Shown here: positions 1 to 16,942 of the stretch, in pieces
How the letters are laid out: every line of letters begins with the position of its first letter
Numbering within the stretch: position 1 is the stretch's first letter
Source of the DNA: Clostridia bacterium
GTDB lineage: Bacteria; Bacillota; Clostridia; Oscillospirales; Acutalibacteraceae
Reading direction: 5' to 3'
Length of the DNA stretch: 41,045 bases
Assembly (NCBI GenBank): GCA_017938985.1
Contig: JAGBAK010000046.1
Location: 1 to 41,045 of the forward strand
The notes under the pieces: model-generated
Told to the model about the DNA's origin: nothing
Database searches by the model: none
The model's input: the letters and a program-made list of their open reading frames with translations, nothing else
Position numbers and translations under genes: made by a program

Positions 1-1
1 A

Positions 2-1354
2 TTGAAATTTGGGAATAAGACTTGTGAGCAACAGGTCTTATTTTTGTTTTTGATTTTTAATTGGTACACAGACGCTGCATGCACAACCAAGCTTGCAGAA
101 AATGCAACAGTAGGTGCACAGGTTGTTAACCTTTATGCAAAGACAACAGCAGGCACCTTCACAGCAAACTTCTGGCTTGACGATGCAAAGACAGAGCTTT
201 ACTACACAGCAAACGTTGTCTTTGATAAGGAAATCAGACTTCCCGACACCCTCGAAGCTCCCACAAAGACAGGTTATATCTTCGCAGGTTGGGATCCCTA
301 TGTTGGTCTTATGGACGAAGAAGGTAAAGACTTCGTAGCAATCTGGTATGAAAACGATGTAGTTACAGCAACATTCTATGTTGACGGTGCTGTATACGAA
401 ATGTTTGACAACCTTACCTACGGCGCAGAGATGGAAATTCCCGCTCCTCCCGTTAAGGCTGGTCACAGATTCGACGGCTGGGCACTTAAGGGCACAACAG
501 ACATCGTTGACCTTCAGGGCACAACAGTTCCTGCTGAATCAGTTGAATACGAAGCAATCTTCACAATCACAGAGTTCTATGTAACATATAACAACTATGT
601 AGCATCAGAATTCGGTCCTGCAGGCACACCCACTCCCGCATATGAAGCATATGCAATTGACGGTGTTGCAGTTAAGAATGCATACAATCTTAACGATGCA
701 ATCGTTCATCCCGCAGCTCCCGTTGTTGCTGTTATTAAGGACGGCACAACTCATACCGAATACTACACCTTCTCACATTGGGAAGATGCAGACGGTAATG
801 TTTGGGCAGACGGTGCAGCGATGCCCGCAAACGACGTAGCTCTTTACGCTAAGTATGACAGAGCAACTGTTCAGCTTGCTGTAGTTGAAGGTTCCACCGG
901 TGTCCTTGAAAAGGCAAACGCAACCGATATGGAACAGTGGTATGCATACGGCTTCGCCGGCAGACGTATCAACTCTGCTGAAGTTCCCAAGTTGTTCACA
1001 GTTCAGGGCGACGGTTACTATGTAATTGAAAACTCCGAGCTTTCAGGAACATTCGGCACAGGTGCAAAGATAGTTGTTTATGACCGTCTTACCAACGAGT
1101 TTGTTGAAGAATATTACATCATCATCTTTGGCGATGTTGACGGTAATGCACGTATCGACGTTAATGACTCGTCGGCAATGGTTACTGAACTTGCGTCACC
1201 CACATGGTCTAACAGAAGAAACGGCGTTCCTTACAGAATTAAGGCAGCCGACCTCGACCTCAACCGCAGAATCGATACTAACGATTCCACACGTCTTATT
1301 AATGCTATTGCAGGCGAAGTTTCAATAGACCAGACAACAGGCGAAGCTAAGTAA
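2..1354 (+). CDS. InlB B-repeat surface protein with C-terminal dockerin, 5' end missing
   Basis: This is the C-terminal part of a large secreted repeat protein. The frame is open from base 2, but the first 18 or so codons pass through the terminator-like hairpin and do not look like protein. Recognisable coding sequence starts near base 58 with the tail of an InlB B-type repeat (WYTDAAC). Three more repeats follow, marked by GYIFAGW, GHRFDGW and YYTFSHW. Nucleotides about 867-1129 encode a conserved module ending in GTGAKIVVYD and an IIIFGD strand. It is followed by a type I dockerin with two calcium loops, DVDGNARIDVND and DLDLNRRIDTND, both with acidic or Asn residues at positions 1, 3, 5 and 12. 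InlB repeats are beta-grasp adhesion or spacer units, and dockerins bind cohesins on scaffold or cell-surface proteins. No signal peptide is visible because the true 5' end is absent. The next gene downstream has the same C-terminal architecture, so this is the first of three tandem paralogues. Confidence 0.8.
   Translation: MKFGNKTCEQQVLFLFLIFNWYTDAACTTKLAENATVGAQVVNLYAKTTAGTFTANFWLDDAKTELYYTANVVFDKEIRLPDTLEAPTKTGYIFAGWDPYVGLMDEEGKDFVAIWYENDVVTATFYVDGAVYEMFDNLTYGAEMEIPAPPVKAGHRFDGWALKGTTDIVDLQGTTVPAESVEYEAIFTITEFYVTYNNYVASEFGPAGTPTPAYEAYAIDGVAVKNAYNLNDAIVHPAAPVVAVIKDGTTHTEYYTFSHWEDADGNVWADGAAMPANDVALYAKYDRATVQLAVVEGSTGVLEKANATDMEQWYAYGFAGRRINSAEVPKLFTVQGDGYYVIENSELSGTFGTGAKIVVYDRLTNEFVEEYYIIIFGDVDGNARIDVNDSSAMVTELASPTWSNRRNGVPYRIKAADLDLNRRIDTNDSTRLINAIAGEVSIDQTTGEAK
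14..52 (+). terminator. Rho-independent terminator-like hairpin at the left edge
   Basis: An 11-bp stem (14-24 pairs with 32-42, one T-G wobble, loop TGAGCAA) is followed by a T-rich tract from 41 to 52. It looks like a normal intrinsic terminator, but it lies immediately upstream of, and in frame with, the middle of a repeat-protein gene. That is an odd place for a terminator and suggests a junction near base 55-60. Confidence 0.6.
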
Positions 1355-1372
1355 ACAGGTTTATTAATTACA

Positions 1373-1404
1373 CCCGAAGAGGTAACTTAGGTTATCTCTT
1401 CGGG
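1373..1404 (+). other. Long stem-loop after the first repeat-protein gene
   Basis: A 14-bp stem (1373-1386 with 1391-1404, one G-T wobble, loop TTAG) lies 18 nt after the stop codon. It has no T-tract on either side, so it is more likely a transcript-stabilising or processing element, or a weak terminator, than a strong one. The rest of 1355-1504 shows no gene and no promoter I can defend. A ribosome binding site, GGGAGG, precedes the next start. Confidence 0.45.
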
Positions 1405-1504
1405 AAAACCAAAAAGCAAAAGGATATCCCTTGCAAATTTGGCTATTATGGGATTATTCCCATTTATATATGCAGTTCCAAAAATTAAGGGAGGAATAAC
1501 TTGC

Positions 1505-4500
1505 ATGAAAACATTCAAACGCACCCTTTCCGGTTTTCTTGCCTTGTTGATGGTTTTCAGCTCTTTCTCCGTTCTTGCCACTGCAGTCGAATTGGACGAT
1601 GGCAACAAAATTACGGCTGAATTCTACACCGATTTTTTTGTTCAGAACGATGAAGGAGTCTGGGAAAAGACAGATAAGGTTAAAGCCGGAAAAACGGTAA
1701 AAGCGAGAGTTTCAATTGAAACAGACTACGCTATAGGTTCTTCACAGGTTCTCTGGGTTTATAACAGAGAATTCTTTGAGTGGAGTGATGAAGGAATTGC
1801 CACCTTAAGCGAAGGTATTTATAATGCATCAAGCATTTTAAATCCCGATGAAAATGCAGCAGCAAGCAGCGTTGGCGGTTTCTTTACCCACAGAACCGAA
1901 GTTGTAGAATATGAACCTGCTGACGATATGATCTACGATGGTCTTGTACCTGGTGATTATTTCGATGACAAAGGCTGGTTTGCTTTAAACCTTAACCAAG
2001 GTGTTCCCGTAGAACTCAGCAAAAATGATTACTTTGTTGAATTCACATTCACAGTTAAGAAAGATGCACAGGGTGAGGGCTTCCTCTTTGTTCCCGTGGA
2101 GTCTATCAGAAGTCCCGAATGGTCTTATTCACCCACATATCTTCAGCGTGCTTCCGGTCCTGACAACCTCAACGTTAACGTTCCGGAACAGGCTATGAGT
2201 ATGCCTTATAATTTAATTCCCAAGGATACTAACACAATCAAGCTCTATTCAGAAACATCCACAACATATACACAGAACGTATATACAATGGATACAACGG
2301 GTAATTACAGCGCAGCTGCTGTAACAACAACACCCACAGCCGAAATCGGTTCAACAATCAACGCTGCAAGCTATACTGCTCCTGCAGGCTTCTCAGTTGA
2401 TACCGCAAAGAGCACAGCAGGCGACGTTACAATCGAAGATGAAGGCGTATCATCAATCGATATTTACCTCAGCAGAAACAAGTATAAAGTTACTTTTGAC
2501 GGTAAAGAAACCGAACAGTATTTTGATGCTGTAATCGTTCCCGAAACAGCAGAAGAAAAAGAAGGCTACACATTCGCAGGCTGGTATGCAGGCGAAACAA
2601 AGCTTACCGAAACAACAAAGGTTCCCGTTGACGGTGCGGCTTACACAGCTAAGTACACACCCAACGAAGTTGGTTACACAGTTAACAAGTACTTCATGAA
2701 CACTGACGGCGAAACATATGCAGATGCAGTTCCCGAAGCATTCCCCGGCAAAACAGGCGATGAAGTAACCTACTCAACAGAGGTTGAAGGCTTCACACTT
2801 GACAAAACACAGGGCAAACTTTCCGACACCGTAACAGGCGACGGCAAACTTGTTCTTGAGGCTTACTACACCCGTAACAAGGTTCAGGTAACAATCAACG
2901 GCAAGACAGAAGAGATGTACTACGGCGAAACAATCGATAAGCCTTCAGATCCTCCTGCAGACCCCGGTTATGAATTTGACAAGTGGGTTGACGAAAAAGG
3001 CGACGAAGTTAAGTGGCCTGTAACAGTTGGTACTGAAGATATCGTTATCGAACCTTCATTCAGCAAGCTTCCCAGAACAGTAACATATAAGTATGTTGGT
3101 GCTCCCTCAGGCTACGATGTTCCCGCTCCCAAGATCGCTTACATCGAAGATCCCATCGAGCTTCCCACACTTCCCACAGTTGAAGGCTACACCATCAGTG
3201 ATTGGGTAATCACAGATGCAAACGGTGACGCTATCACAGACGGCAAGGTTGGTACAACAGACGTAACAGTTACAGCAACCTGGACTCTCAACGCTTACAA
3301 GGTAACTCTTGACCTTGACGGCGGCGAAGCTGCTATCACATCAATCGCAAAGAACCACGGCGAAACTCTTCACGCTGACGAACTTCCCGATGTTGTTAAG
3401 GCAGGCTATGACCACCTCGGCTGGACAGTTGACGGTGCAGACGCAACATTCCCCATGACAATCAAGGGCGATGTTATTCTCAAGGCAAAGCTTGCTCTTC
3501 ATAACTACAGCATTACTTACGCATTCTCAGGCAACAAGCCTGCAAGCGTAGACGTTCCCGCAGCAACAACAGGCACAATGGGTTCAGCTATTCCCATGCC
3601 CACAATCACAGATCCCGAAGGCTATTCATTCGGCGGCTGGGTTGCAACAGATGCTGAAGGCAACGAAATCACAGACGGCAAGGTTGGCACATCAGATATT
3701 ACCGTAACAGGTAAGTGGACTCTCAACCGCCATGACGTATCATTCGCAACAGGCGTTGAAGGCACAACAATCGACACAATCACAAGACCTTACGGTACTG
3801 AAATTACAGCTCCCTCAACAGATATCTCTGCTCTTAAACCCGGCTACACATTCGGCGGCTGGAAGGATAAGGCAACAGGCAGCGTTGTAACGTTCCCGTT
3901 CTCAATGCCTGACAGAAACGTTGAACTTGAAGCTGTTTGGACAGCAACTCCCAGAACAATCACTTACGTTTACGTTGGCGCTCCCGAGGGCTATGAAGCT
4001 CCCGCAGCAAAGACAGGCGTAATCGGTGATACAATCGAACTTCCCGGTCTTCCCACAGTTGACGGCTACGCAGTAGGCAACTGGGTAATCACAGATGCAG
4101 ACGGCAACGCTATCACAGACGGTAAGGTTGGTCTTACAAACGTAACAGTAACATCAACATGGACAAAGAATGCTTACGTTGTAACATTCTGGCTTGACGA
4201 AGACGGCACAAAGGTTCACCACACCGAAAACTATACATACGGTCAGGCTCTTAAATATCCTGATGCTCCCAACGTTCCCGGCTACATCTTTGAAGCATGG
4301 TCAGAAGTTGAGGGCATGGAAGTAACAGAAGCACTTGACGTATATCCCATCTACAAAGCAATTGAATACAACGTAACAGTTCTCGGTCTCTACGGCGATA
4401 CAGTTGATGAATGGATTGCTTTCTACGGCGACGAAATCACTCTTGGCGACCTTCTCACCAAGGAAGAAATGGATCAGATGCTCGCTGATAACGGCGACTT

Positions 4501-7500
4501 CTATACATTTGATTTCTGGGCATATGACGGCGATGAAATCACAGATGAAACTGTTATCACTGTAACAGCAGACGTTGAAATCGAAGGTAACTTCACAGCT
4601 ATGGATGCAAAGCTTATCTTTGATGCAAACGGCGCAACATTTGCTGAAAGCGGTTCCGGCATCTACGAAGTTGAACTTCTCTATGATGACGAAATCACAG
4701 CAAATATGTATCCCGCAATCCCCACATACGAAGGTCACACCTTCAAGGCATGGAGCCTTGACCTTGTAGGTCAGCCCATGGACGAACTCGAAAAGACAAT
4801 CTCCATCACATGGACAAAGAACACTTATAACGTTAAGTTCGTTAACGGTCTCACAGGTGAAGAAATCGAAACCGTAACAGGCGAGTACGGCGACGCTGTT
4901 GAAGCTCCCGCTCTTCCCGTAGTTGCAGGTTATACCTTTGCTTGGGATAACACCGTAACATCAATCCCCGCTAAGAACGAAAAGGGCGAAGTTATGGCAG
5001 CAGGCGGCACAATGACAGTTACCGCTGTTCCCACAGCTAAGACCTATGCAGTTAACTACTACGTTGACGGCGAGATCTATAACACCCTTACCGTTGCATA
5101 CGGCAAGCCCGTTGAATCAATCGCAGCTCCCGCAGCAGGCGATCTTCCCAGCGGTTACTCATTCCTCGGCTGGAGCCTTGATGCTGCTGCAACTCTTCCC
5201 GGCAACCTCGGCGTAGTCGGTGACGGCGACGTTAACGTTTATGCAGTTCTTCAGGCAAACGGCGACGTAGCTTATAAGGTAGAAATCTACCAGCAGAAGC
5301 TTGAAGGCGGCTATGAGCTTGTTGATACAGAAGAATTCACAAACGGTACAACAGGTAAGGTTGCTCCTTACGTAGTTGACCAGAACGTTGAAGGCTTCGT
5401 ATTCAACGAAGGTGCTTCAGTTCTTGACACACCCGTTGCAGGCGACGGCTCAACAGTTCTTAAGGTTTACTATGACCGCAAGACAATCACTGTTGACATC
5501 AACGGCGACAAGCAGGATGTTCCCTTCGGAACAGAAATCGACCTTCCCAACGACGTTGATGACGGCGACGAAGGCACAGAGTTTGATAAGTGGGTTGACG
5601 AAGACGGCAACGAAGTAAGCGATCCTTACATTGTTCCCGATTCAGATGAACCCGTTGTTATCACTCCCGTATTCACAAACAAGGAATTCACAATCACATA
5701 TTATAGGGACGGCGCTTCCGTCTATAGCCAGAAGGTAGCTTATAAGGCAGACGTTGAACTTGCTTACGGCGGTTCTTATATGCCCGATGGTTACGTATTC
5801 ATCGGCTGGACACTTACTGAGGGTTCAGACGAAATCGCAACAATCGACACAATGCCTGCTCACGACGTAGATCTCTATGCTATCTACGAAGCAGACACAG
5901 TCATCGAATACACAGTTGAATTCTACAAGCAGAACCTTGAAGGCGGCTATGAACCTGCCGGCACAGAAACATATCATGACGGCACAACAGGTGAAGAAGC
6001 TCCCTATGTTGTTGACGAAGATAAGTTTGAAGGCTTCGTATTCAACGCAGATGCATCAATCCTTGATACACCTGTTGCAGGCGACGGCACAACAGTTCTT
6101 GAAGTTTACTATGACCGCAAGACAATCAAGGTTCAGATTGGCGACAACGAACCCGTTGATGGTCCCTTCGGAACAGAAATCGACCTTCCCGATGACGTTG
6201 ATGACAAGGATCCCGGCACAGAGTTTGATAAGTGGGTTGACGAAGACGGCAACGAAGTAACCGATCCTTATATCGTTCCCGATTCAGAAGACGGTACACC
6301 CGTTGTTATCACTCCCGTTTATAAGAACAACTCCTTCGACGTAACATTCGTTGATGAACTCAACGGTACAACAAAGACAAACAGCTACGAATACACAACA
6401 AAGATCCCGAATCCCGGTTCACCCAGCGCAGTAGGCTATGAGTTCAACGGCAGGTTCACCAAGGACGGCGACAAGTATGTAGCAGGTACAACAACAGTTC
6501 CCAACGCAAACGTAACTTACTATGCTAAGTACACAGGTCTTCCCGTAACTTACATTGTTAACGTTTACTTCGAGAAGCTTGACGGCAAGGGTTGGGAAGA
6601 CGTTCAGTCCACAGTTGTTGACGGTGTAGCAGGCGAAACAGCTAAGTACACCGAAACATTCGAAGGCTTCACACTTGATAATGATATCTCCACAACAGAA
6701 GCTACTATCAAGGGCGACAGCTCAACAGTTCTTGTTATCTACTTCACCAGAAACGATGTAACAATCACCGTTGACGGCGAAGAAAAGGATGTTCCTTACG
6801 GCACAGAAGTTGATGAAGACGATCTCAAGCCCGACGTTGAACCCGGCTACAAGGTAGACAAGTGGGTTGACGGCGAAGGCAACGAAATCACATTCCCCGT
6901 TGAAATCAAGGGCGGCGAAGAATTCATCCCCGTAATCGTTAAGGAAACATACTCACTCATCTTCAGACTTGCTGACGGCACAGTTGTTGAAGAAACAGCA
7001 GCAGTTGAATTCGATTCAGAAATCACTGCTCCTCAGGCTCCCGAAGCTGCTGAAGGCTACACCTTCGCAGGTTGGGTAGACGCAGCAACAAACGAACCCT
7101 TCAACGGCAAGATGCCCGCTAAGGCAACAGTTTACGTTGCAGTTTACACAAACAACGAAGCTGCTAATTACACAGTTAACATCTACATCATGAACACAGA
7201 AGGCGTTGAAGAACTCTCCGGTTCTTACACCGCAACAGCCGCTATCGGCACAACTCAGTCAGTTGTTCCCGGCAAGGTTGACTTCTGCACTCTTGACACA
7301 GCCAAGAGTAACACAAGCTGCGTAGTTCTTGCAGACGGCACAGCTTCCATCAACCTCTACTTCGTAAGAGGTCTCTACACAGTAAGCTTCGACGGCGTTG
7401 AAACTTCCGTTTATGCCGGCGCAGTTATCCCCGTACCCGCAGATCCCGCAGTTGAAGGCAAGACCTTCCTCGGCTGGACACCTGCAATTCCCAATGTAAT

Positions 7501-8404
7501 GCCTGAAAACGATCTCGAATTCACATCAACTTGGGAAGACGTAACTTACACAATCACTTACGTTGTAAACGGCGACAAGATCGTTCATAACTACAAGTTC
7601 GGCGATACGGTTACCGCTTATGAAGTAACAGAAGCTCCTGCAGGTCTCACATTCAAGGGCTGGTCAGACACCGTTCCCGCAACAATGCCTGCAGAAAACA
7701 TTACCGTTTCCGCAATCTTCGAGGCTGCTGCATACACAGTAACCTACCTTGATGCAGAAGGTAACGTATTCGTATCCTACTCAGTTGCATTCGGCGCAGA
7801 AATTCCTGTTCCCGCAGACGCACCTGCTAAGGAATTCTACACCTTCAAGGGTTGGTCAGCAGCACCCGCAACAATGCCTGCTGAAAATATCACAATCGAG
7901 CCCATCTTCGAGCCCGTTCCTGTTCGTCTTATTGCCGCTCCCGGTTCAACAACCGTTATCGACAGAGACAACATGGTAATCTACGGTCTTGACATCGGTC
8001 TCTCAGCTAAGATTCTTGACGATAACTTCCTTGATTACGAAGGCGACGGTACTCTTGTTATCAAGCCCGTAACAGAAGGCACAAGCAGATACGGCACAGG
8101 CGCTGTTGTTGAACTTTATGACAACGCCGACGGTTCACTCGTTGAAACATTCCATATCGTTGTATTCGGCGACCTTAACGGTGACTCACATGTAAACGGT
8201 CTTGACGTTTCCATCGCTTCTGACGAAGCATTCTGGATCACTGACTGGTCAATTGAAGGCGAAAACTTCGAGGCTTACAAGCTCATCGCAGCTGACCTTG
8301 ACCACAACGGCTTCATCGACACAACAGATGTTTCCAACATCAAGAACTACGTACTCAGCCTTGTTGAAATCGATCAGGTAGCAGGCAAAGTCGTTCGCTC
8401 CTAA
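1505..8404 (+). CDS. Giant secreted InlB B-repeat protein with cohesin-like N-terminus and C-terminal dockerin (2299 aa)
   Basis: The ATG at 1505 is chosen because GGGAGG lies about 10 nt upstream and a classic signal peptide follows at once (MKTFKRTL, hydrophobic core, cleavage around residues 26-28). An in-frame extension to 1439 lacks these signs. Residues about 35-240 form a beta-rich module with KVKAGKTVKARV, VLWVYNREFFE and FVEFTFTVKKD, resembling the strand pattern of cohesins (inference). From about 250 to 2135 I count roughly 21 InlB B-type repeats by their GYxFxGW signature. About six units of the form YxVxxY...GFxLD...VLxVYYxR, MucBP-like, are interleaved. Residues about 2138-2220 are the conserved pre-dockerin module. 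G2222 onward is a type I dockerin with DLNGDSHVNGLD and DLDHNGFIDTTD. The protein is strongly acidic and has no LPxTG, SLH or terminal membrane segment, so attachment would have to go through the dockerin or another partner. Likely role: cell-surface adhesin or structural fibre; substrate unknown. Confidence 0.85.
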   Translation: MKTFKRTLSGFLALLMVFSSFSVLATAVELDDGNKITAEFYTDFFVQNDEGVWEKTDKVKAGKTVKARVSIETDYAIGSSQVLWVYNREFFEWSDEGIATLSEGIYNASSILNPDENAAASSVGGFFTHRTEVVEYEPADDMIYDGLVPGDYFDDKGWFALNLNQGVPVELSKNDYFVEFTFTVKKDAQGEGFLFVPVESIRSPEWSYSPTYLQRASGPDNLNVNVPEQAMSMPYNLIPKDTNTIKLYSETSTTYTQNVYTMDTTGNYSAAAVTTTPTAEIGSTINAASYTAPAGFSVDTAKSTAGDVTIEDEGVSSIDIYLSRNKYKVTFDGKETEQYFDAVIVPETAEEKEGYTFAGWYAGETKLTETTKVPVDGAAYTAKYTPNEVGYTVNKYFMNTDGETYADAVPEAFPGKTGDEVTYSTEVEGFTLDKTQGKLSDTVTGDGKLVLEAYYTRNKVQVTINGKTEEMYYGETIDKPSDPPADPGYEFDKWVDEKGDEVKWPVTVGTEDIVIEPSFSKLPRTVTYKYVGAPSGYDVPAPKIAYIEDPIELPTLPTVEGYTISDWVITDANGDAITDGKVGTTDVTVTATWTLNAYKVTLDLDGGEAAITSIAKNHGETLHADELPDVVKAGYDHLGWTVDGADATFPMTIKGDVILKAKLALHNYSITYAFSGNKPASVDVPAATTGTMGSAIPMPTITDPEGYSFGGWVATDAEGNEITDGKVGTSDITVTGKWTLNRHDVSFATGVEGTTIDTITRPYGTEITAPSTDISALKPGYTFGGWKDKATGSVVTFPFSMPDRNVELEAVWTATPRTITYVYVGAPEGYEAPAAKTGVIGDTIELPGLPTVDGYAVGNWVITDADGNAITDGKVGLTNVTVTSTWTKNAYVVTFWLDEDGTKVHHTENYTYGQALKYPDAPNVPGYIFEAWSEVEGMEVTEALDVYPIYKAIEYNVTVLGLYGDTVDEWIAFYGDEITLGDLLTKEEMDQMLADNGDFYTFDFWAYDGDEITDETVITVTADVEIEGNFTAMDAKLIFDANGATFAESGSGIYEVELLYDDEITANMYPAIPTYEGHTFKAWSLDLVGQPMDELEKTISITWTKNTYNVKFVNGLTGEEIETVTGEYGDAVEAPALPVVAGYTFAWDNTVTSIPAKNEKGEVMAAGGTMTVTAVPTAKTYAVNYYVDGEIYNTLTVAYGKPVESIAAPAAGDLPSGYSFLGWSLDAAATLPGNLGVVGDGDVNVYAVLQANGDVAYKVEIYQQKLEGGYELVDTEEFTNGTTGKVAPYVVDQNVEGFVFNEGASVLDTPVAGDGSTVLKVYYDRKTITVDINGDKQDVPFGTEIDLPNDVDDGDEGTEFDKWVDEDGNEVSDPYIVPDSDEPVVITPVFTNKEFTITYYRDGASVYSQKVAYKADVELAYGGSYMPDGYVFIGWTLTEGSDEIATIDTMPAHDVDLYAIYEADTVIEYTVEFYKQNLEGGYEPAGTETYHDGTTGEEAPYVVDEDKFEGFVFNADASILDTPVAGDGTTVLEVYYDRKTIKVQIGDNEPVDGPFGTEIDLPDDVDDKDPGTEFDKWVDEDGNEVTDPYIVPDSEDGTPVVITPVYKNNSFDVTFVDELNGTTKTNSYEYTTKIPNPGSPSAVGYEFNGRFTKDGDKYVAGTTTVPNANVTYYAKYTGLPVTYIVNVYFEKLDGKGWEDVQSTVVDGVAGETAKYTETFEGFTLDNDISTTEATIKGDSSTVLVIYFTRNDVTITVDGEEKDVPYGTEVDEDDLKPDVEPGYKVDKWVDGEGNEITFPVEIKGGEEFIPVIVKETYSLIFRLADGTVVEETAAVEFDSEITAPQAPEAAEGYTFAGWVDAATNEPFNGKMPAKATVYVAVYTNNEAANYTVNIYIMNTEGVEELSGSYTATAAIGTTQSVVPGKVDFCTLDTAKSNTSCVVLADGTASINLYFVRGLYTVSFDGVETSVYAGAVIPVPADPAVEGKTFLGWTPAIPNVMPENDLEFTSTWEDVTYTITYVVNGDKIVHNYKFGDTVTAYEVTEAPAGLTFKGWSDTVPATMPAENITVSAIFEAAAYTVTYLDAEGNVFVSYSVAFGAEIPVPADAPAKEFYTFKGWSAAPATMPAENITIEPIFEPVPVRLIAAPGSTTVIDRDNMVIYGLDIGLSAKILDDNFLDYEGDGTLVIKPVTEGTSRYGTGAVVELYDNADGSLVETFHIVVFGDLNGDSHVNGLDVSIASDEAFWITDWSIEGENFEAYKLIAADLDHNGFIDTTDVSNIKNYVLSLVEIDQVAGKVVRS
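5267..5692 (+). repeat. Internal DNA duplication, copy 1
   Basis: About 425 bp encode a MucBP-like unit (from YKVEIYQQKLEGGYE to VYYDRK), followed by an InlB-type unit with GTEFDKWVDEDGNEV and YIVPDS. A closely matching copy lies about 210 bp further on. Similarity is high at both DNA and protein level (for example PFGTEIDLP and FDKWVDEDGNEV shared exactly), pointing to fairly recent intragenic duplication. Confidence 0.7.
5902..6329 (+). repeat. Internal DNA duplication, copy 2
   Basis: This is the second copy of the unit at 5267-5692. It encodes YTVEFYKQNLEGGYE through GTEFDKWVDEDGNEV and YIVPDSEDGTPVV. Differences are concentrated in the linker and in a few substitutions; the InlB-type core is nearly unchanged. 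The 210 bp between copies encodes a single ordinary InlB repeat, so the duplicated block may have been a two- or three-repeat unit. Confidence 0.7.
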
Positions 8405-8415
8405 CCTCTGACATT

Positions 8416-8520
8416 ATTCGCGGGGAGGGGAGAGTCTCTTCTCCCCGTGAATTAGAGATATGTCACGCAAGAGTGGCGGCACACCACTCTTTGACTCCGG
8501 CTCACAGCACAGAACCGGAG
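8416..8520 (+). promoter_or_regulatory. Structured leader: three successive hairpins before the third repeat-protein gene
   Basis: The 139 nt between the two giant genes contains three consecutive stems. The first is a 16-bp stem with wobbles, 8416-8431 with 8437-8452, whose core is CGGGGAG/CTCCCCG. The second is a perfect 8-bp stem, 8469-8476 with 8484-8491. The third is a 6-bp stem, 8495-8500 with 8515-8520. The last ends 7 nt before the AAGGAGG ribosome binding site. None is followed by a T-tract. The arrangement could stabilise or process a long mRNA or control translation of the downstream gene. I do not recognise it as a known riboswitch. Confidence 0.5.
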
Positions 8521-8543
8521 AAATAACAAGGAGGAATTCTCTC

Positions 8544-11500
8544 ATGACAAAAATCAAAAGGTTAGTCGCTGTTGTACTGGCTTTATTGATGATTTTTGGT
8601 TCAGTTTCAATCGTTGCTTCCGCTTGGGATGCAACTACTGACGACGGTTTTACGTTAAACGTAAACACAAAAATCTTCAGACAAGTTGACGGCGAATGGA
8701 TCGAAACTACCAAAGTTAAAGCAGGCGAAACGGTAAAGGCAAGAGTATATCTCGGAACAGATTATTTTACCAACGGCGGCGACCTCTTATTCTTCTATAA
8801 CACAAGCTTCTTTGAGGATGCTTATTCAAGCGACCTTCAGACACTTGCTGTTAACACCGCTGTTTATGCCGGCGGTAATTATGGTATTACCGGCACTTTC
8901 TATAACTCACTGTCCGCAACAAACGTTGAAGGCAGACTTGTAAGACTCGGCGTTATTGATCAGAATTTCGCTGATAAACACAACTATTTTGCAGTGAGCT
9001 TCTCACTTGCAGGCGATAAGAAGAACAATCTTTTACTCGCAAATGAATGGTTCTGCGAATTTGACCTCAAGGTTAAGGCAGACGCAAGCGCTGCTGATGC
9101 AGGCGATATGTTTGCTCTTGCAAACACATTCAGAAGTGACGCAGTTAAAACAAACTACTGCAATATTTCCAAGGGTCCCTCATTCGGCTACAACGAAGAT
9201 GTAGTTGATATGACACAGTGGAATGCAACCGTATCGGTTGCAAGCCAGCCCGTTACTCTTTACACAAACTACGTTGAAGCAACCTTTGATGCAAACGGCG
9301 GTGTATTTGCTGACGGCGAAGCTGAAAAGGTTCTTACAGGCGAAGCCGGCACGGCTCTCAATGTAGGCGCACCCGTTTACGAAGGCTTCACCTTCAAGGG
9401 TTGGGTAGCTGAAGGCACAACAGAAGTTCTTCAGGACGTTGTTGCTCTTCCCCAGGCAAACGCAACTTACGTTGCACAGTGGGAATCAGCAGTTGACAAG
9501 TATGACGAAACTCTCGGTTTCAGAACAGAAATCTACAGACAGAACGATAACGGCGAATGGGTATTCACTGAAAAGGTAATCCCCGGCGAAACAGTTAAGG
9601 CAAGAATTTTCATCGACACCACTTATTTCACCAATGCCGGTGACTTCGTTGTGTTCTATGATAACGATTTCTTTGAAGAAGTTGACCCCAACTTCACAGA
9701 AGGTTCTTACACAGACCTCGTAACAAATGATTCCGCAACAAGCTCAGCAGCTATCGTTGCTGCAGAAGGCACATATTCACTTGTTCCTTCTTCGGCAAGA
9801 GTTATCAAGAGACTTGTTGAAGCAGGTCACATCACACAGGATTTTGCTGAAACACACACAGCATATCTTGCAACCTATAAGTTTGTTCCTGCAAACAGTG
9901 CAGTTCTCAGCGGCGACGAATACTTCGCAGAATGGGAACTCAAGGTTAAGGATTCCGCAACAGGCGAAGGCGATTTCTTTGTAGTTGAAGAAACTATCCA
10001 GAACGCAAGCGCTGCAGGCCAGAAGGCTTATATCAACATCCCCCTCAGCTATGAAGGCGGCACAGATGACGATTCAATCTCACTCTTCGAGGTTAACGTT
10101 AATACTGAAGTTGAAAGCAATCCCGTAACCACAGTCAGCGCAATCAACTTTGACGCTAACGGCGGCGAATTCGCAACAGGCGAAACAACGTTCGTTATCG
10201 AAGGCGACATTGCTGATCCCGTTGATGCAGCAACAATCCCCGAAGTAACCAAAGACGGTTATACATTCATCGGTTGGGTTCCTGCAGACCTTGCAGATCC
10301 CACAGAAGCAGACGTTGTTGACGTTCCCACAGAGATTCCCTTTGATGAACTCTTCCTCAAGGCTCTCTGGATCAACGAAGTTACAATCACAATCGACCCC
10401 TCAAACGGTGATCCCATCATTGAAGAGACCGTAACAGCAGGCGATCCTTTCGATAAGCCTGAAGATCCCTCCAAGGAAGGTCATTATCTTGCAGGTTGGG
10501 TTGACGGTGACGGCAACTTTATGACAGAGCTTCCCGATAACTATCCCGCAGAGGATACAACCTACACAGCAGTATTTGAAACATACACTTACACAGTTGA
10601 GTACTATGTTCTCAATTCTGAAACACTTAAGTTTGACAGAGTTGCAGCTGTAAACACAGCTTACGGTGAAGAAATTCTTGCAGTTCCTCCCACATACACA
10701 CTGCCCGAAGGCTTCACACTCAGTGCAGCTTACACAGACATTTCTTTCACAAACGCATTTGCAGCCGGCACAACAATGCCTGCTGACAACGTTCAGCTTT
10801 ACTACCAGGCAGTAGCTAACAAGTATCCCGCAACCTTCGATCTTGACGGCGGTAACATTGACGGTAACACAGACGATGTTGTTATCGAAACCATTTACGG
10901 CCAGCAGATCAAGACTCCTGCAGACCCCGTTAAGGAAGGCCATACCTTCACAGGTTGGACTCCCATGGTTGGTATGATGGATTCCGAAGGTGCTGACTTC
11001 ATCGCTACTTGGGAAGTAAACGATTACACAGCAACCTATATCGTTGAAGGCAAAGTTTATGAAGCATATGACATTCCCTTCGGCGGTGAAATGGAAACTC
11101 CCGCAGCTCCCGTTCTTGAAGGTTATAACTTTGTAGGTTGGGATCCTTCACCCATTCCCGCAACAATGCCTGCTGAAGATCTTACCTTCACAGCAGTGTT
11201 CGAGAAGAAGGATATCACAATCACTCTCAAGCTTGACGGCGGCGAATACGACGGCGATCCCGCTGATATCGTAATCGCAGGCAAGTACGGTGATGCTGTT
11301 ACAGCTCCCGATGCAGCTCTCCTTGCTAAGGAAGGCTACGTATTCGGCGGTTGGGAACCTGCTCTTCCCGATGCACTTCCCGCAGAAGATGCTGAATACA
11401 CAGCAATCTGGAATCCCGCAACCGATACACCTTATCAGGTATGGGTATATCTTGAAAACACAGACGGCACATTCCCTGCAGACGATGCTCCCAGCCAGGT

Positions 11501-14366
11501 TATCAATATGACAGGCGTGACTGACTCTGTTATCAATGTTGCTATCCCCACTCCCTATGGCTTCGTTCTTAACGAAACAAAGGGTGACGTTGCAAACGAT
11601 GTAACAATCGCTGCTGACGGCTCAACAGTTTATAAGATTTACTTTGACAGAGAGAAATACGATATCAAATTTGACGGCAACGGCGGCACAATCGCCGGCG
11701 AGCCCTCAACAACAGATGAATACCGTTATCTCGCTTCCGTAACTGCTCCTGCAGAAGCTGACCTTTACAAAGAAGGATACACCTTCCTCGGTTGGACTCC
11801 CTCAGTTGACAGCGAAGCAACAAAGGACGTAACATACGTTGCACAGTGGGAAGTTAACTCCTATGACGTTAACTACATGATCAAGGGTGCAGACGGCGCT
11901 GAAGACGAACTCTTCAAGACCGAGTCCTTCAACTATGGCGATGCTCTCACCGTAACAGCTGATAAGCCCGAAAAGACAGGTTACAGCTTCGGCGGTTGGA
12001 CAGATGAAAACGGCGCAACTTATAGGTTCCCCGCAACAATGCCCGCTGAAGACATCACCGTTTATGCAAAGTTCACTCCCAGAAACTATGAAGCTAAGTT
12101 CTATGAAGAAGCTGATGCTGATGCTCCCTATGACATCACAAACGCTGACTTCGACGCTCCCGTTGAAGCTCCCGCATCACAGCCCTCCAAGGAAGGCTAT
12201 GAATTCGGCGGCTGGTCAACAGACGGCGTAACACCCGTTGATTTCACAAAGGAAATCATGGATGAAGAAGGCAAGGACTACGTAGCAATCTGGAACGCAG
12301 CAGAACAGGATATCCCCGTTGAGTATTATTACATGGATACAGACGGCACATATCCCGCAGCAGCTGATAAGACAGAAACCGTTAAGTTCAAGACAGGCGA
12401 AACAGCAACAGTAGCTCCCGCTGATGAAGCAAACTACACAGTTGATGCTGACAAGTCAGTTCTTGAAGCAGTTGTAGCAGCTGACGGTTCAACCGTTCTT
12501 AAGGTTTACTACAAGCTTAACTCCACAAAGCTCACCATCGAAGTTGATGGCGAAGAAACAGTTATCGAAGGTCTTGTTGGTTCAGACGTTCCTGCAGACA
12601 AGATTCCTGATACTGACAAAGACGGTTACACCTTCAACGGCTGGGTAGACGAAAACGGCGATCCCGTTGACGTTCCCGCAACAATGCCCGAAGAAGACAC
12701 AACCATCAAGGCTGATTACAGCATAAACAGCTACAACGTAACATATTATGTTGACGGCGAAATTTATGACGGCCCCAATTCTACAGAGTTTGGTGCTCCC
12801 ATTGCTGAGCCCTCAACTCCCACAAAGGTTGGCTATTCATTTGCCGGTTGGCTTGATGATGCAAACCACAAGCCCAGTGATTACGGCGTAATGCCCTCAA
12901 CAGACCTCGAATTCTATGCACAGTGGACTGCTAACGCAAACATTGGCTACGTTCTCGAAGTTTACGAAATGGGTACAGACGGCACATATCCCGCAACTCC
13001 CACAACAGTTTATAACTTCAATGACGGCGTTGTAGGCGATGAAAGAACTGTTACACCTACCGTTCCCACAGGCTTCACACTTGACGTTGAAACAGAAAAC
13101 ACTGCAGAAAAGAGCGTTCTTACAGGTAAGATCCCTGCAACAGGTACTCTTGTTCTTAAGGCTTACTACACCAGAGATCAGTATACACTCTATATTGACG
13201 TTGACGGTGACGTAACAGAAGAAGTTTACTATTATCAGCAGGAAATCGCTGACATCGCTGATCCCGTTAAGAAGGGCTGGACCTTCACAGGTTGGGAACC
13301 CGAAGTTCCCGCAACAATGCCCGCTAACGACGTAACAGTTGTTGCTCAGTTCACAAAGAACTCCTATCCTGCATCATTCAACGCAGGTGAAGGCGCATTC
13401 GCAACAGGCGATAAGACTGTTGAAACCGACGTTCCTTATGCAGAACCCATCACAGCTCCTGCAAACAACCCCGTAAGAGACGGTTATAACTTCAAGGGCT
13501 GGTCAACAGACGGAACAAACGTAATTGAAAACCTCGGCAGAATGGACGATGACGGCGCTGAATTCATCGCTGTTTGGGAAAAGGCTGAAGTTACAGTAAC
13601 ATTCTATAACTACCTGCCCTCAGAAAAGGGTCCCGCAGTTCCCGACGGTCAGGCAACATACGTTTATGATCAGGCAACCTATCTCTACGGCGAAACAGTA
13701 GTATTCCCCGCTGATCCCACAATCCAGGGTCACGAAGATCACTACGTATTCATCGGTTGGGTAGATGCTGACGGTAACGCAGTTGAACCCGGTATCACAG
13801 CTCCTTCCGCAAACCTTGACATCTATGCATCATATGAAAGAGTTAAGGTTATGCTTATCCCCAAGAACGACACTTGCACAACAGTCATCGACAGAGCAGG
13901 TCTCACAGTTGATGATTACACAGCAGACAGCGAGTGGTATGTATACGGTCTTGAAGAGATCCTTTCACTGAATCTTCTTCTCAACGAATACATTGACGTT
14001 CAGGGCGACGGCAAGATCGTTGTTACAAAGATCAAGGATAACAGTAAGTACTACGGTACAGGCTCAATCATTGATGTTTACGATAACGTAACAGGCGAGC
14101 TTGTTGAAAGCTTCAGAATCGTCATCTTCGGCGATATCGACGGTGACTCCTATGCAAACGGCGTTGACCTTTCAATCCTCTCCGAAGAAGTTCTCAGCCT
14201 TACATACTGGTCAATCGACGGCGCTGATGAATATTGCGCATATAAGGTTAAGGCAGCAGACCTCCGTCCCGACGGCGTAATCGACGTTCAGGATAAGGCT
14301 CTCCATAACAAGCACGTTCTCAGCCTTGGTTACATCAACCAGGAAACAGGTCTTGTTGAAATGTAA
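8544..14366 (+). CDS. Giant secreted InlB B-repeat protein with two cohesin-like modules and C-terminal dockerin (1940 aa)
   Basis: The start at 8544 follows AAGGAGG with 9-nt spacing and opens a signal peptide (MTKIKRLVAV, hydrophobic stretch, cleavage near ASA-W at residue 27). A longer frame from 8460 would run through the hairpins and is rejected. Residues about 36-242 and 334-545 are two copies of the N-terminal module found once in the upstream protein; all share the pattern GxTVKARxxxxTxY and YxxxFFE. One InlB repeat separates them. About 13 further InlB B-type repeats (GYxFxGW) and about four MucBP-like units follow. The C-terminus (from about 1775) has the conserved pre-dockerin module, then a dockerin from G1863 with DIDGDSYANGVD and DLRPDGVIDVQD. 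The second loop has Arg instead of Asp/Asn at position 3 (R1908), which should weaken calcium binding. There is no wall-anchoring motif. It is a paralogue of the gene before it and probably co-expressed with it; the ligand is unknown. Confidence 0.85.
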   Translation: MTKIKRLVAVVLALLMIFGSVSIVASAWDATTDDGFTLNVNTKIFRQVDGEWIETTKVKAGETVKARVYLGTDYFTNGGDLLFFYNTSFFEDAYSSDLQTLAVNTAVYAGGNYGITGTFYNSLSATNVEGRLVRLGVIDQNFADKHNYFAVSFSLAGDKKNNLLLANEWFCEFDLKVKADASAADAGDMFALANTFRSDAVKTNYCNISKGPSFGYNEDVVDMTQWNATVSVASQPVTLYTNYVEATFDANGGVFADGEAEKVLTGEAGTALNVGAPVYEGFTFKGWVAEGTTEVLQDVVALPQANATYVAQWESAVDKYDETLGFRTEIYRQNDNGEWVFTEKVIPGETVKARIFIDTTYFTNAGDFVVFYDNDFFEEVDPNFTEGSYTDLVTNDSATSSAAIVAAEGTYSLVPSSARVIKRLVEAGHITQDFAETHTAYLATYKFVPANSAVLSGDEYFAEWELKVKDSATGEGDFFVVEETIQNASAAGQKAYINIPLSYEGGTDDDSISLFEVNVNTEVESNPVTTVSAINFDANGGEFATGETTFVIEGDIADPVDAATIPEVTKDGYTFIGWVPADLADPTEADVVDVPTEIPFDELFLKALWINEVTITIDPSNGDPIIEETVTAGDPFDKPEDPSKEGHYLAGWVDGDGNFMTELPDNYPAEDTTYTAVFETYTYTVEYYVLNSETLKFDRVAAVNTAYGEEILAVPPTYTLPEGFTLSAAYTDISFTNAFAAGTTMPADNVQLYYQAVANKYPATFDLDGGNIDGNTDDVVIETIYGQQIKTPADPVKEGHTFTGWTPMVGMMDSEGADFIATWEVNDYTATYIVEGKVYEAYDIPFGGEMETPAAPVLEGYNFVGWDPSPIPATMPAEDLTFTAVFEKKDITITLKLDGGEYDGDPADIVIAGKYGDAVTAPDAALLAKEGYVFGGWEPALPDALPAEDAEYTAIWNPATDTPYQVWVYLENTDGTFPADDAPSQVINMTGVTDSVINVAIPTPYGFVLNETKGDVANDVTIAADGSTVYKIYFDREKYDIKFDGNGGTIAGEPSTTDEYRYLASVTAPAEADLYKEGYTFLGWTPSVDSEATKDVTYVAQWEVNSYDVNYMIKGADGAEDELFKTESFNYGDALTVTADKPEKTGYSFGGWTDENGATYRFPATMPAEDITVYAKFTPRNYEAKFYEEADADAPYDITNADFDAPVEAPASQPSKEGYEFGGWSTDGVTPVDFTKEIMDEEGKDYVAIWNAAEQDIPVEYYYMDTDGTYPAAADKTETVKFKTGETATVAPADEANYTVDADKSVLEAVVAADGSTVLKVYYKLNSTKLTIEVDGEETVIEGLVGSDVPADKIPDTDKDGYTFNGWVDENGDPVDVPATMPEEDTTIKADYSINSYNVTYYVDGEIYDGPNSTEFGAPIAEPSTPTKVGYSFAGWLDDANHKPSDYGVMPSTDLEFYAQWTANANIGYVLEVYEMGTDGTYPATPTTVYNFNDGVVGDERTVTPTVPTGFTLDVETENTAEKSVLTGKIPATGTLVLKAYYTRDQYTLYIDVDGDVTEEVYYYQQEIADIADPVKKGWTFTGWEPEVPATMPANDVTVVAQFTKNSYPASFNAGEGAFATGDKTVETDVPYAEPITAPANNPVRDGYNFKGWSTDGTNVIENLGRMDDDGAEFIAVWEKAEVTVTFYNYLPSEKGPAVPDGQATYVYDQATYLYGETVVFPADPTIQGHEDHYVFIGWVDADGNAVEPGITAPSANLDIYASYERVKVMLIPKNDTCTTVIDRAGLTVDDYTADSEWYVYGLEEILSLNLLLNEYIDVQGDGKIVVTKIKDNSKYYGTGSIIDVYDNVTGELVESFRIVIFGDIDGDSYANGVDLSILSEEVLSLTYWSIDGADEYCAYKVKAADLRPDGVIDVQDKALHNKHVLSLGYINQETGLVEM

Positions 14367-14407
14367 TTGCTGATTACACTTGAAGCAAACAATAATTAAA
14401 TAAAAGG

Positions 14408-14433
14408 GCCTCCGACCTCGGTCGGGGGCTTTT
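14408..14433 (+). terminator. Intrinsic terminator after the repeat-protein cluster
   Basis: The stem GCCTCCGACC pairs with GGTCGGGGGC (one T-G wobble) around a 2-nt loop and is followed by TTTTCCC. It lies about 40 nt after the stop codon and ends the giant-gene transcription unit. The T-tract is short, so termination strength is uncertain. Confidence 0.7.
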
Positions 14434-14450
14434 CCCTTGCCTGCGGATTG

Positions 14451-14520
14451 CGATAAAGTCGTTTTTTCTCGCTCGGCGTACCTTTGTACGCCGTCGCTCA
14501 AAGAAAACACCTTTCTCATC
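14451..14520 (+). repeat. Dispersed intergenic element, short copy A
   Basis: It begins with CGATAAAGTCG and continues directly into an imperfect palindrome with GTTTTTTC at the left, GGCGTAC-CTTT-GTACGCC in the centre and GAAAACACC at the right, then CTTTCTC. The same order of landmarks is found at 33873-34082 and, inverted, at 38498-38719; this copy lacks their internal segment. It lies just downstream of a transcription terminator and contains no gene. Confidence 0.65.
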
Positions 14521-14625
14521 AACCGCAGACAAGGGAACCGATTTATGTGTGTTGACCCGATACATCTGCATAGAAAAAAGCAGTTTTTTCATCTCTGTGA
14601 AGCAAGGAAACTGATTTGACGAAAG

Positions 14626-14672
14626 CGATAAAGTCGTTTTTTCGCTCAACGTAGCTTTGTACGTCTGAGGAT
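14626..14672 (+). repeat. Dispersed intergenic element, degraded copy B
   Basis: It carries the same CGATAAAGTCG opening and GTTTTTTCGCTC, followed by a weakened central palindrome (ACGTAGCTTTGTACGT). The right half is lost. It sits about 170 bp after copy A in the same orientation, so the two form a local tandem. The remaining intergenic sequence from 14521 to 14711 shows no gene. Confidence 0.55.
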
Positions 14673-14711
14673 TGCACATAAGGCGGCAACGAATGTTGTT
14701 AATTCAACTTT

Positions 14712-14736
14712 GTAGGGACAGCCCTTGCGGCTGTCC
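14712..14736 (+). repeat. GTAGGG-type short palindromic repeat
   Basis: The sequence GTAGG is followed by GGACAGCC, a 5-nt spacer, and GGCTGTCC, an 8-bp perfect inverted repeat. Related GTAGGG-plus-palindrome units occur at 33910-33935 and 33945-33970 and, inverted, near 38620-38645. It resembles REP-like intergenic palindromes; no coding potential. Confidence 0.5.
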
Positions 14737-14789
14737 GAAAAAATTTTCGTAACGGAATCGGTTTTGAAGCAAGTAAGCATTTAATGAAT

Positions 14790-14832
14790 AACAAAAAACA
14801 GCAGAGGTTTCCGTCAGGATTCCTCTGCTGTT
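14790..14832 (-). terminator. Intrinsic terminator of the GH89 gene
   Basis: Read on the minus strand, an 11-bp stem (AACAGCAGAGG/CCTCTGCTGTT, arms 14822-14832 and 14798-14808) is followed by TTTTTTGTT. It starts only a few bases after the GH89 stop codon and has a textbook U-tract. Confidence 0.85.
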
Positions 14833-14836
14833 GATT

Positions 14837-16942
14837 TCAGCTGTTGAGCATTGCGTCCTTATATCTTTCAAAAAGTCTTCTTGCTTCATCAACCGTGTTT
14901 TCTTCCGAGGGAGCTTCAGGGTTAACGGTGGATAGCCATTTCTTTTCAAACTCGGCATATCTCTTGTAGAAATCGTTGCCTCTGTATATGTTTCGTTCAC
15001 AATGCTGTTTTCTTGTTGTGGTTGAGAAAAGTCTCCTCTTGGGGAATTCATATGCAAGACGTTCAAAGAAGCTCTGCCAACGCTTTGCATAATACGTTTT
15101 CATAAGACCTCCCCATTCTTTCCAGGCGTAATCATAGTTCACACTGTTGCTGAACGGACCCCAGATTGTGAGCTGAACAAGCAGGTTGAGTTCAAAGTTT
15201 TCCTTGTCCTTTTCTGTAAATGCAAGCTCACCTGCTTCCTTAAGGTGCTCATAAAGAGTCAGCTCGGGTCTTGTCTGAAGCAGTCCGTCAAGCTCTTCGC
15301 AAAGCTTGAGGAAAGCGTTTGACGAACGTTCAAAAATCTTAACGTCTTTGTTTTTGTAGCCGTACATAACGTTATCATAAAGAGTGCCTGCGTAGTTACT
15401 CATAACCTGTCTCACAAGGTCGCAGGCATCATAGGCATAGCCATCCTTGCTTGCGTTTTCGGCGTTCAGAAGAAGTTCGGTTGCCTTGATAAGCGTTTTG
15501 TTATCGTAACGGAGCTCTCTGAAATCGTTGGGTGCGGTGTGGCGCAGGTCTGTTGCAGGTCTTGCGCAGATAACCGAGCCCGTCTCTCTGCCGGTACAGT
15601 TTTCGCTGTAGCAGCTTTGGCTCAGCAGAAGCATAGCATCGGCGAGGCATCTTTCGCGGCTGCCGTAGCGACGGTATGCATAGTTGCGCAGCCATTCCTC
15701 AAGGTCAACCGCTTTGTCTTCGGTCATCATCTGGAAAGCAAGGTCAAAATAGAGGGGATTCTGCATAATGCCCTCCATAAACAGACCCGTACCCACGCAG
15801 TTTTCGCTGCCTTCGGTCAGATATTTGTTATCGGCAAGCGCCTTGATGCTGCCGTGCAGAGTGTTTCTGTCACCGAAATTCTGCAGAGTGCCGAGAATGT
15901 AATCATATCCCCAGAATTCGTTTGTTTCCTTGTGCTTTGAGCCGTCAATGTCAAGAATAAGCAGTTTATCCTTGGACACAGCCTTAACTATTTTTTCGCG
16001 CAGTGACCAGCTTTGCATAACCCATACGGCGTCCTTATCAAACTCAGTATACATTGAGCTGATTTCGTAGCCGACCTTGAAAAGGTAATCCCTTGTTTTA
16101 ACAGAGGGTTCGTTTTCGTGGAAGGGGTCGCAGGCGTAATAATGATATGCGCCGAAAAGCTGACGCTGTTTTTCAAGCAGAGCCTTTCCGAACTTTTTAA
16201 ACAGTGGGTCAGTCGGGTCAAGCTGATAGGTAAAGGGGAAGTTGCACCACGAGGGGATAAGACGCAGCTTTGCTTTTTTGAAAAGCTTTGTAACGCTCTG
16301 AGGCACAGTGCCCGTGTAGCCCTGTTGAATGGGGGTCATGCCGAGCTCAACCTCACGGTCAATAATCCTTTTGCCAAGCTCAACACGGCTCTCAATATAT
16401 TTAACGTCTGTCAGGCTGAAATAGCCCGTGATGTTTGTCATAAGCTGCCACGGCCAGAAGCCGGGACCTGAAATGAACTGCATTGCGCCGTTCTCGCTGT
16501 AAGTGAAATCACGCAGTGTGTAATACCAGACTGCCTCTGTGCCAACAACGCTCAGGGGCATGTTGATGCCGTTCATCGCCATAAAGTCAATTTCTTTTTC
16601 CCATTTATCCCATTTCCAGTAAGCAAAGGAATAGCCGAAGGTGCAATAGTTGAGGTATGCCCTCTTTTTCTGGGGGATAATCTTTTGAAGTCTGCCTTCA
16701 AAAAGGGGAGCGGAGCTTACGTTGATTTCTCTGTTGCCGCAGTGCGAAAGGTTAACGCCGCAATAGGTTTTGAGGTATTCATAGTAACCCATTGCCTGGC
16801 TGATTTTGCAGTCGCCGCAGATAACGATTTTGTCATTTTCGCAAAACACGTCAAAGGTGTTTTTACCGTCAACAGGCTCAATTGTGCGCAGTTCAAATAT
16901 ATCGGCAATTTCGGGTGTATTTCTGAGAATCAGGTTTTTCAA
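14837..16942 (-). CDS. Alpha-N-acetylglucosaminidase, glycoside hydrolase family 89 (701 aa)
   Basis: GH89 enzymes release terminal alpha-linked N-acetylglucosamine, for example from heparan sulfate or from alpha-GlcNAc-capped mucin glycans. The family landmarks are present: MNGINMPLS and GTEAVWY near residues 123-140, GPGFWPWQ at 159-166, CDPFHENEP around E276 and GTGLFMEGIMQNP around E390. By alignment from memory with human NAGLU (E316, E446) these two glutamates are the catalytic pair. The length fits the core family without accessory carbohydrate-binding modules. The start is TTG at 16942: AGGAG lies 9 nt upstream, while the nearby ATG at 16949 is out of frame. There is no signal peptide, so the enzyme is predicted to be cytoplasmic and to act on imported oligosaccharides, unlike the secreted clostridial forms. 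It is a single-gene unit with its own promoter and terminator. Confidence 0.92.
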   Translation of the reverse strand: MKNLILRNTPEIADIFELRTIEPVDGKNTFDVFCENDKIVICGDCKISQAMGYYEYLKTYCGVNLSHCGNREINVSSAPLFEGRLQKIIPQKKRAYLNYCTFGYSFAYWKWDKWEKEIDFMAMNGINMPLSVVGTEAVWYYTLRDFTYSENGAMQFISGPGFWPWQLMTNITGYFSLTDVKYIESRVELGKRIIDREVELGMTPIQQGYTGTVPQSVTKLFKKAKLRLIPSWCNFPFTYQLDPTDPLFKKFGKALLEKQRQLFGAYHYYACDPFHENEPSVKTRDYLFKVGYEISSMYTEFDKDAVWVMQSWSLREKIVKAVSKDKLLILDIDGSKHKETNEFWGYDYILGTLQNFGDRNTLHGSIKALADNKYLTEGSENCVGTGLFMEGIMQNPLYFDLAFQMMTEDKAVDLEEWLRNYAYRRYGSRERCLADAMLLLSQSCYSENCTGRETGSVICARPATDLRHTAPNDFRELRYDNKTLIKATELLLNAENASKDGYAYDACDLVRQVMSNYAGTLYDNVMYGYKNKDVKIFERSSNAFLKLCEELDGLLQTRPELTLYEHLKEAGELAFTEKDKENFELNLLVQLTIWGPFSNSVNYDYAWKEWGGLMKTYYAKRWQSFFERLAYEFPKRRLFSTTTRKQHCERNIYRGNDFYKRYAEFEKKWLSTVNPEAPSEENTVDEARRLFERYKDAMLNS

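Follow-up and report, generated by a model that had tools for sequence, protein, structure and literature searches.

Three consecutive giant genes (p1, p2 and p3), all on the plus strand, were analysed in a window of 41,045 nucleotides, which is the entire contig C15 (JAGBAK010000046.1) of a Clostridia bacterium metagenome-assembled genome (MAG; 2.19 Mb, 138 contigs, 81% complete). Sequence comparison indicates that their products have a common C-terminal X-module/dockerin unit (X-Doc), that p2 and p3 begin with N-terminal modules (heads) of one family, and that the same heads are found on relatives with PxTG-type or hydrophobic ends. By the same comparison, proteins that are otherwise nearly identical differ by en bloc replacement of the p2 head, which is new here, and the twin heads of p3 are conserved, unlike that of p2. 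We tentatively propose, at rather less than even confidence, that these enzyme-free proteins form surface fibres in which the X-Doc would plug into the cohesin-fold head of a family member and the p2 head would be the variable tip.

The last 300 residues of p2 and its relatives P0003, P0004 and P0005 are 97–100% identical and the heads 35–42%, except for the P0003–P0005 head pair (59%). Between p2 and P0004, the identity rises from 8 of 20 residues at positions 221–240 to 20 of 20 at 241–260, and six other proteins carry the head type of P0004 at 66–84% identity, with tails 52–89% identical to that of P0004. The one-head set consisted of 37 proteins, namely p2 and 36 retrieved by the X-Doc and thus blind to the head. 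In this set the heads were below 60% identical in 22 of the 30 pairs with tails at least 90% identical, and these cases come from five lineages; across them the p2-type heads are 26–59% and the X-Docs 90–100% identical. In a wider set of 63 one-head proteins, partly retrieved by the head, the same was true of 22 of 59 pairs. The protein database was collapsed at 90% identity, which biases it toward differing pairs, and the two-head proteins were under the same collapse. Among these (retrieved by the heads), swapped heads were found in 0 of 20 pairs with tails at least 90% identical, and at tails of at least 85% the first head was swapped in 2 of 60 pairs and the second in 0 of 60. The contrast is also visible within P0004 and P0039, likely from one strain because their longest contigs have an equal length (209254), in which p3 is 99–100% identical in every part, whereas the p2 head is 40% identical, with the remainder of p2 mostly at 91–100% and its signal peptide at 80%. 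In six further presumed same-genome pairs the p2 heads are 26–41% and the p3 heads 66–83% identical.

Exchange of heads between strains appears more likely than a switch within one genome. The latter is disfavoured because no inverted repeats of at least 24 bases were found in window positions 1–15000 at the settings used, and because only five N-modules, three of them those of p2 and p3, were found in this genome, itself 81% complete. The third-base identity of p2 and its G018 counterpart at identical A/G/P/T/V residues (20/36 in the head, 374/570 in residues 301–2135, 48% by chance) is too saturated to decide.

The genes and their parts lie in the window as follows:

58..1354 (frame open from base 2), plus strand: p1, repeat protein with a dockerin end, 5'-truncated at the contig end
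872..1126, plus strand: p1 pre-dockerin (X) module, from alignment
1130..1309, plus strand: p1 dockerin, above the Pfam cut-off
1505..8404, plus strand: p2, 2299 aa; head, repeat stalk, X-module and dockerin
1589..2230, plus strand: p2 N-module, predicted cohesin fold, block-exchanged among close relatives
2231..7921, plus strand: p2 stalk, PF09479/PF18998 repeats
7922..8164, plus strand: p2 pre-dockerin (X) module
8168..8356, plus strand: p2 dockerin, above the Pfam cut-off
8544..14366, plus strand: p3, 1940 aa; two heads, repeat stalk, X-module and dockerin
8628..9260, plus strand: p3 first N-module, from the family alignment
9486..10133, plus strand: p3 second N-module, from the family alignment
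10134..13841, plus strand: p3 stalk, PF09479/PF18998 repeats
13842..14126, plus strand: p3 pre-dockerin (X) module
14130..14315, plus strand: p3 dockerin, slightly under the Pfam cut-off, Arg at position 3 of the second loop

The N-modules cover residues 29–242 of p2 and residues 29–239 and 315–530 of p3. A first N-module search retrieved only 2 proteins; the final alignment (A5) holds 60 rows from 61 distinct stretches, with one short row dropped and the p2 row trimmed. When matched against solved structures, the model of the p2 module showed the beta-sandwich of cohesins, and the p2 head is thus predicted to fold like a cohesin. A sequence-only reading of this DNA had inferred a cohesin likeness of the N-modules, which is supported by the predicted fold for p2; the p3 modules are related to it by alignment. 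The PF00963 cohesin profile gave 16.2 bits for the p2 module, under the cut-off of 24.1, and no match at E ≤ 10 to the two modules of p3, and no Pfam or NCBIfam family reached a cut-off with the N-modules. A sequence profile of 60 N-modules had no match at E ≤ 10 among solved structures, so the cohesin match rests on the predicted model. The C-terminal domains of Antigen I/II proteins (SpaP, Pas) and the Ig-like domains of PrgB also matched the p2-head fold, ranking under most of the listed cohesins in a comparison confined to that fold. The mean pair identity among 14 p2-type heads was 0.62–0.68 for strands 1, 2 and 7, 0.62 for strand 3, 0.37 for strand 5, 0.53 for strand 6 and 0.50 for strand 8, numbered after the cohesin topology and not by superposition; by this analogy, the pattern hints that the face with which cohesins bind dockerins may be the more variable one in p2-type heads.

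We hypothesize that the C-terminal X-module/dockerin finds its socket in another member of the family, namely in a head with the predicted cohesin fold. Since the dockerin stays fixed while the adjacent head is exchanged, the dockerin is probably not paired with that head, and the conserved heads of p3 would be better socket candidates for the p2 dockerin. The twin heads of p3-type proteins, which are PxTG-ended in two sister species, may be what the X-Docs of p1 and p2 plug into; the PxTG-ended two-head proteins of those species would form the base of the fibre, and the exchanged head of p2 its outward, strain-variable tip. Such a tip may recognise something external (host, food or a neighbour surface) or vary under phage or immune pressure. 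The fuller scheme, in which cohesin-fold modules are exchangeable strain-specific heads on dockerin-tipped stalks, plugged onto conserved twin sockets, with the head traded as a cassette, is possible but somewhat doubtful.

It is also quite possible, if short of probable, that a separate scaffold receives the X-Docs through ordinary cohesins. This scaffold would be the protein of contig C69 or one missing from the incomplete MAG, and all the cohesin-fold heads would serve simply in adhesion and bind no dockerin. A search for cohesin scaffolds in the same genome, which the sequence-only reading had advised, found PF00963 cohesins on one protein of contig C69 (L006:3-2879), which has two modules over the cut-off, repeats and a hydrophobic C-terminus. 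The head swaps are independent of the dockerin, as in ligand-binding tips, and the head fold is common to adhesin domains of the AgI/II type, both of which are consistent with this alternative. However, the p2 X-Doc query had matches in 43 of 45 genomes (many weaker ones mainly over the dockerin part) and PF00963 in 14 of 45, and in 8 of the 15 near-complete genomes of the genus (G007, G013, G016, G018, G028, G033, G035 and G042) X-Doc and N-module matches occur without a PF00963 match; the X-Doc matches of G033, G035 and G042 are weak (33–40 bits). Moreover, the PF00963 cohesin genes of four relatives (L149, L150, L152 and L158) adjoin another dockerin gene, whose product ends in RYLVGKE, which suggests that these two form a separate pair. 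The odds of docking on C69-type cohesins and those of the favoured plug-in into family heads are similar.

A third explanation concerns the X-Doc itself, which consists of a module of about 80 residues (GTGxxVxxYD...FGD) followed by a two-loop dockerin. The alignment of p1, p2 and p3 contains 39 invariant columns of 187, with 33–34% identity to p1, and confirms the earlier observation of a common unit in all three genes. Two of the three dockerins exceed the profile cut-off: against Dockerin_1 (dockerin type I, PF00404; cut-off 22.9 bits), whole p1 and p2 scored 23.3 and 26.7 bits, whereas p3 scored 15.8 and its excised C-terminal piece 22.7, still under the cut-off. By sequence, p1 and p2 have acidic ligands in both calcium loops, and p3 has Arg at position 3 of the second loop. 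This substitution, the sub-threshold score of p3, the presence of Asp or Asn at that position in only 42 of the 61 X-Docs of alignment A6 (drawn from 96 distinct C-terminal stretches) and the alternation of the X-Doc with other ends among relatives would fit a C-terminal cap or retention end that calcium stabilises, with attachment to the cell by other means. This is nevertheless unlikely, as Asp, Asn or Glu occupies positions 1, 5 and 12 in 61, 61 and 61 of the 61 X-Docs in loop 1 and in 61, 57 and 60 in loop 2, and the best matches in both sequence and structure are solved dockerins. A divergent X-Doc-like end was also observed on a 910-residue protein cut at the end of contig C23 (L018:6993-9722, minus strand).

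Simple head-to-tail chains, in which each N-module would bind an X-Doc of the same protein type, are suggested by a predicted cohesin fold at one terminus and a dockerin at the other, and have a parallel in Ruminococcus flavefaciens ScaH, where the dockerin recognises the cohesin of ScaH itself (PMC5301203), but are very improbable given the 22 of 30 pairs with replaced heads on constant tails, although such a chain is possible for p3 alone, with its conserved heads. The earlier interpretation is partly supported.

The 21 N-module proteins observed without an X-Doc come from loci picked partly for lacking it, so their counts are not frequencies. Five carry a PxTG-type signal, a hydrophobic stretch and a Lys tail (G016, G007, G044, G029 and G033), another five end in WWQxIIRILLLGFLWY or a close variant, nine have other hydrophobic or amphipathic ends and two no usable end. 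The PxTG-ended proteins of G016 and G007 are two-headed and lie downstream of an X-Doc gene, as p3 does. Sortase was detected in 42 of 45 genomes, with none found in G009, G027 and G029. In the present genome contig C19 encodes a WWQ-ended N-module protein. In G018 and G021 the corresponding gene shares a contig with the p3 orthologue, 26–28 kb downstream of it, and has neighbouring genes in common, so the C19 gene may sit just beyond the end of C15. The C19-type heads also vary between species, with 35–38% identity where the last 110 residues are 52–66% identical, and 28–37% in the G018–G021–G019 pairs.

The stalks contain 4, 16 and 14 PF09479 stretches in p1, p2 and p3, respectively. The InlB B-type repeats read from the sequence were called as PF09479/PF18998, whereas the label MucBP-like was not confirmed (MucBP not called at E ≤ 1). 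The reported absence of enzyme, LPxTG and SLH agrees with the family scan of p1–p3, which gave no call for an enzyme, SLH or sortase family, and with the C-termini, which end past the dockerin with no LPxTG and no sortase-type signal, hydrophobic stretch and basic tail. Membership in a cellulosome or mucinolysome was set aside, as the scanned p1–p3 are without enzyme domains.

The first approximately 20 codons of the p1 frame (window 2-60) mismatch the downstream repeat, probably through misassembly at the contig end. On the other side, p3 is adjoined on the opposite strand by an alpha-N-acetylglucosaminidase gene (NAGLU, GH89-type; 14837-16942, minus strand); by eye, all 6 loci with that side visible (L067, L068, L069, L073, L074 and L075) have a NAGLU-like gene beside the p3 orthologue. 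Further along are a BNR-repeat (sialidase-like) protein (PF13088; 37178-38392, minus strand) and a leucine-rich-repeat protein with LRR_5 and Big_3 (38762-40972, minus strand), whose C-terminal end is YTWWQMIIRILLLGFLWY. This end is also present on five N-module proteins (L016:741-5543, minus strand; L171:6640-8637; L172:6473-8461; L179:2382-5696; L187:606-4922) and is apparently a common C-terminal signature of surface proteins, for which we know of no name.

Cohesins and dockerins are known mainly as clips of enzyme complexes. Here, both folds, that of the cohesin being predicted, occur on giant stalk proteins that carry no enzyme and are present in most genomes of a ruminant-gut genus, often without a Pfam-detectable cohesin. 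The repeated replacement of a single head above a constant stalk offers a direct way into the question of what the heads recognise. If the plug-in model is true, nature would have built a surface-display kit with swappable parts, and the apparent lack of dockerin partners in some gut genomes would be partly explained. Titles and abstracts of the open-licence literature (subscription journals lying outside the search) describe no such proteins under dockerin combined with InlB or repeat names. Surface proteins with InlB B-repeats or Listeria-Bacteroides repeats (PF09479, PF18998) have a similar stalk but differ in the dockerin end and the cohesin-fold head. The Limousia mucinolysome is alike in that gut Clostridia carry cohesins and dockerins; however, the dockerins there are on mucin-degrading enzymes and the cohesins are Pfam-detectable, whereas p1–p3 are enzyme-free, and the main text of that paper (PMC12997984) contains none of the words InlB, adhesin and Listeria. 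In R. flavefaciens, the ScaE cohesin is paired with the X-Docs of CttA and ScaB, and in both systems a module followed by a dockerin forms the C-terminus of surface proteins. The cohesin of ScaE comes with LPXTG, and similarly a single cohesin-fold module stands on a PxTG-ended protein in relatives of the present genome (PMC5301203).
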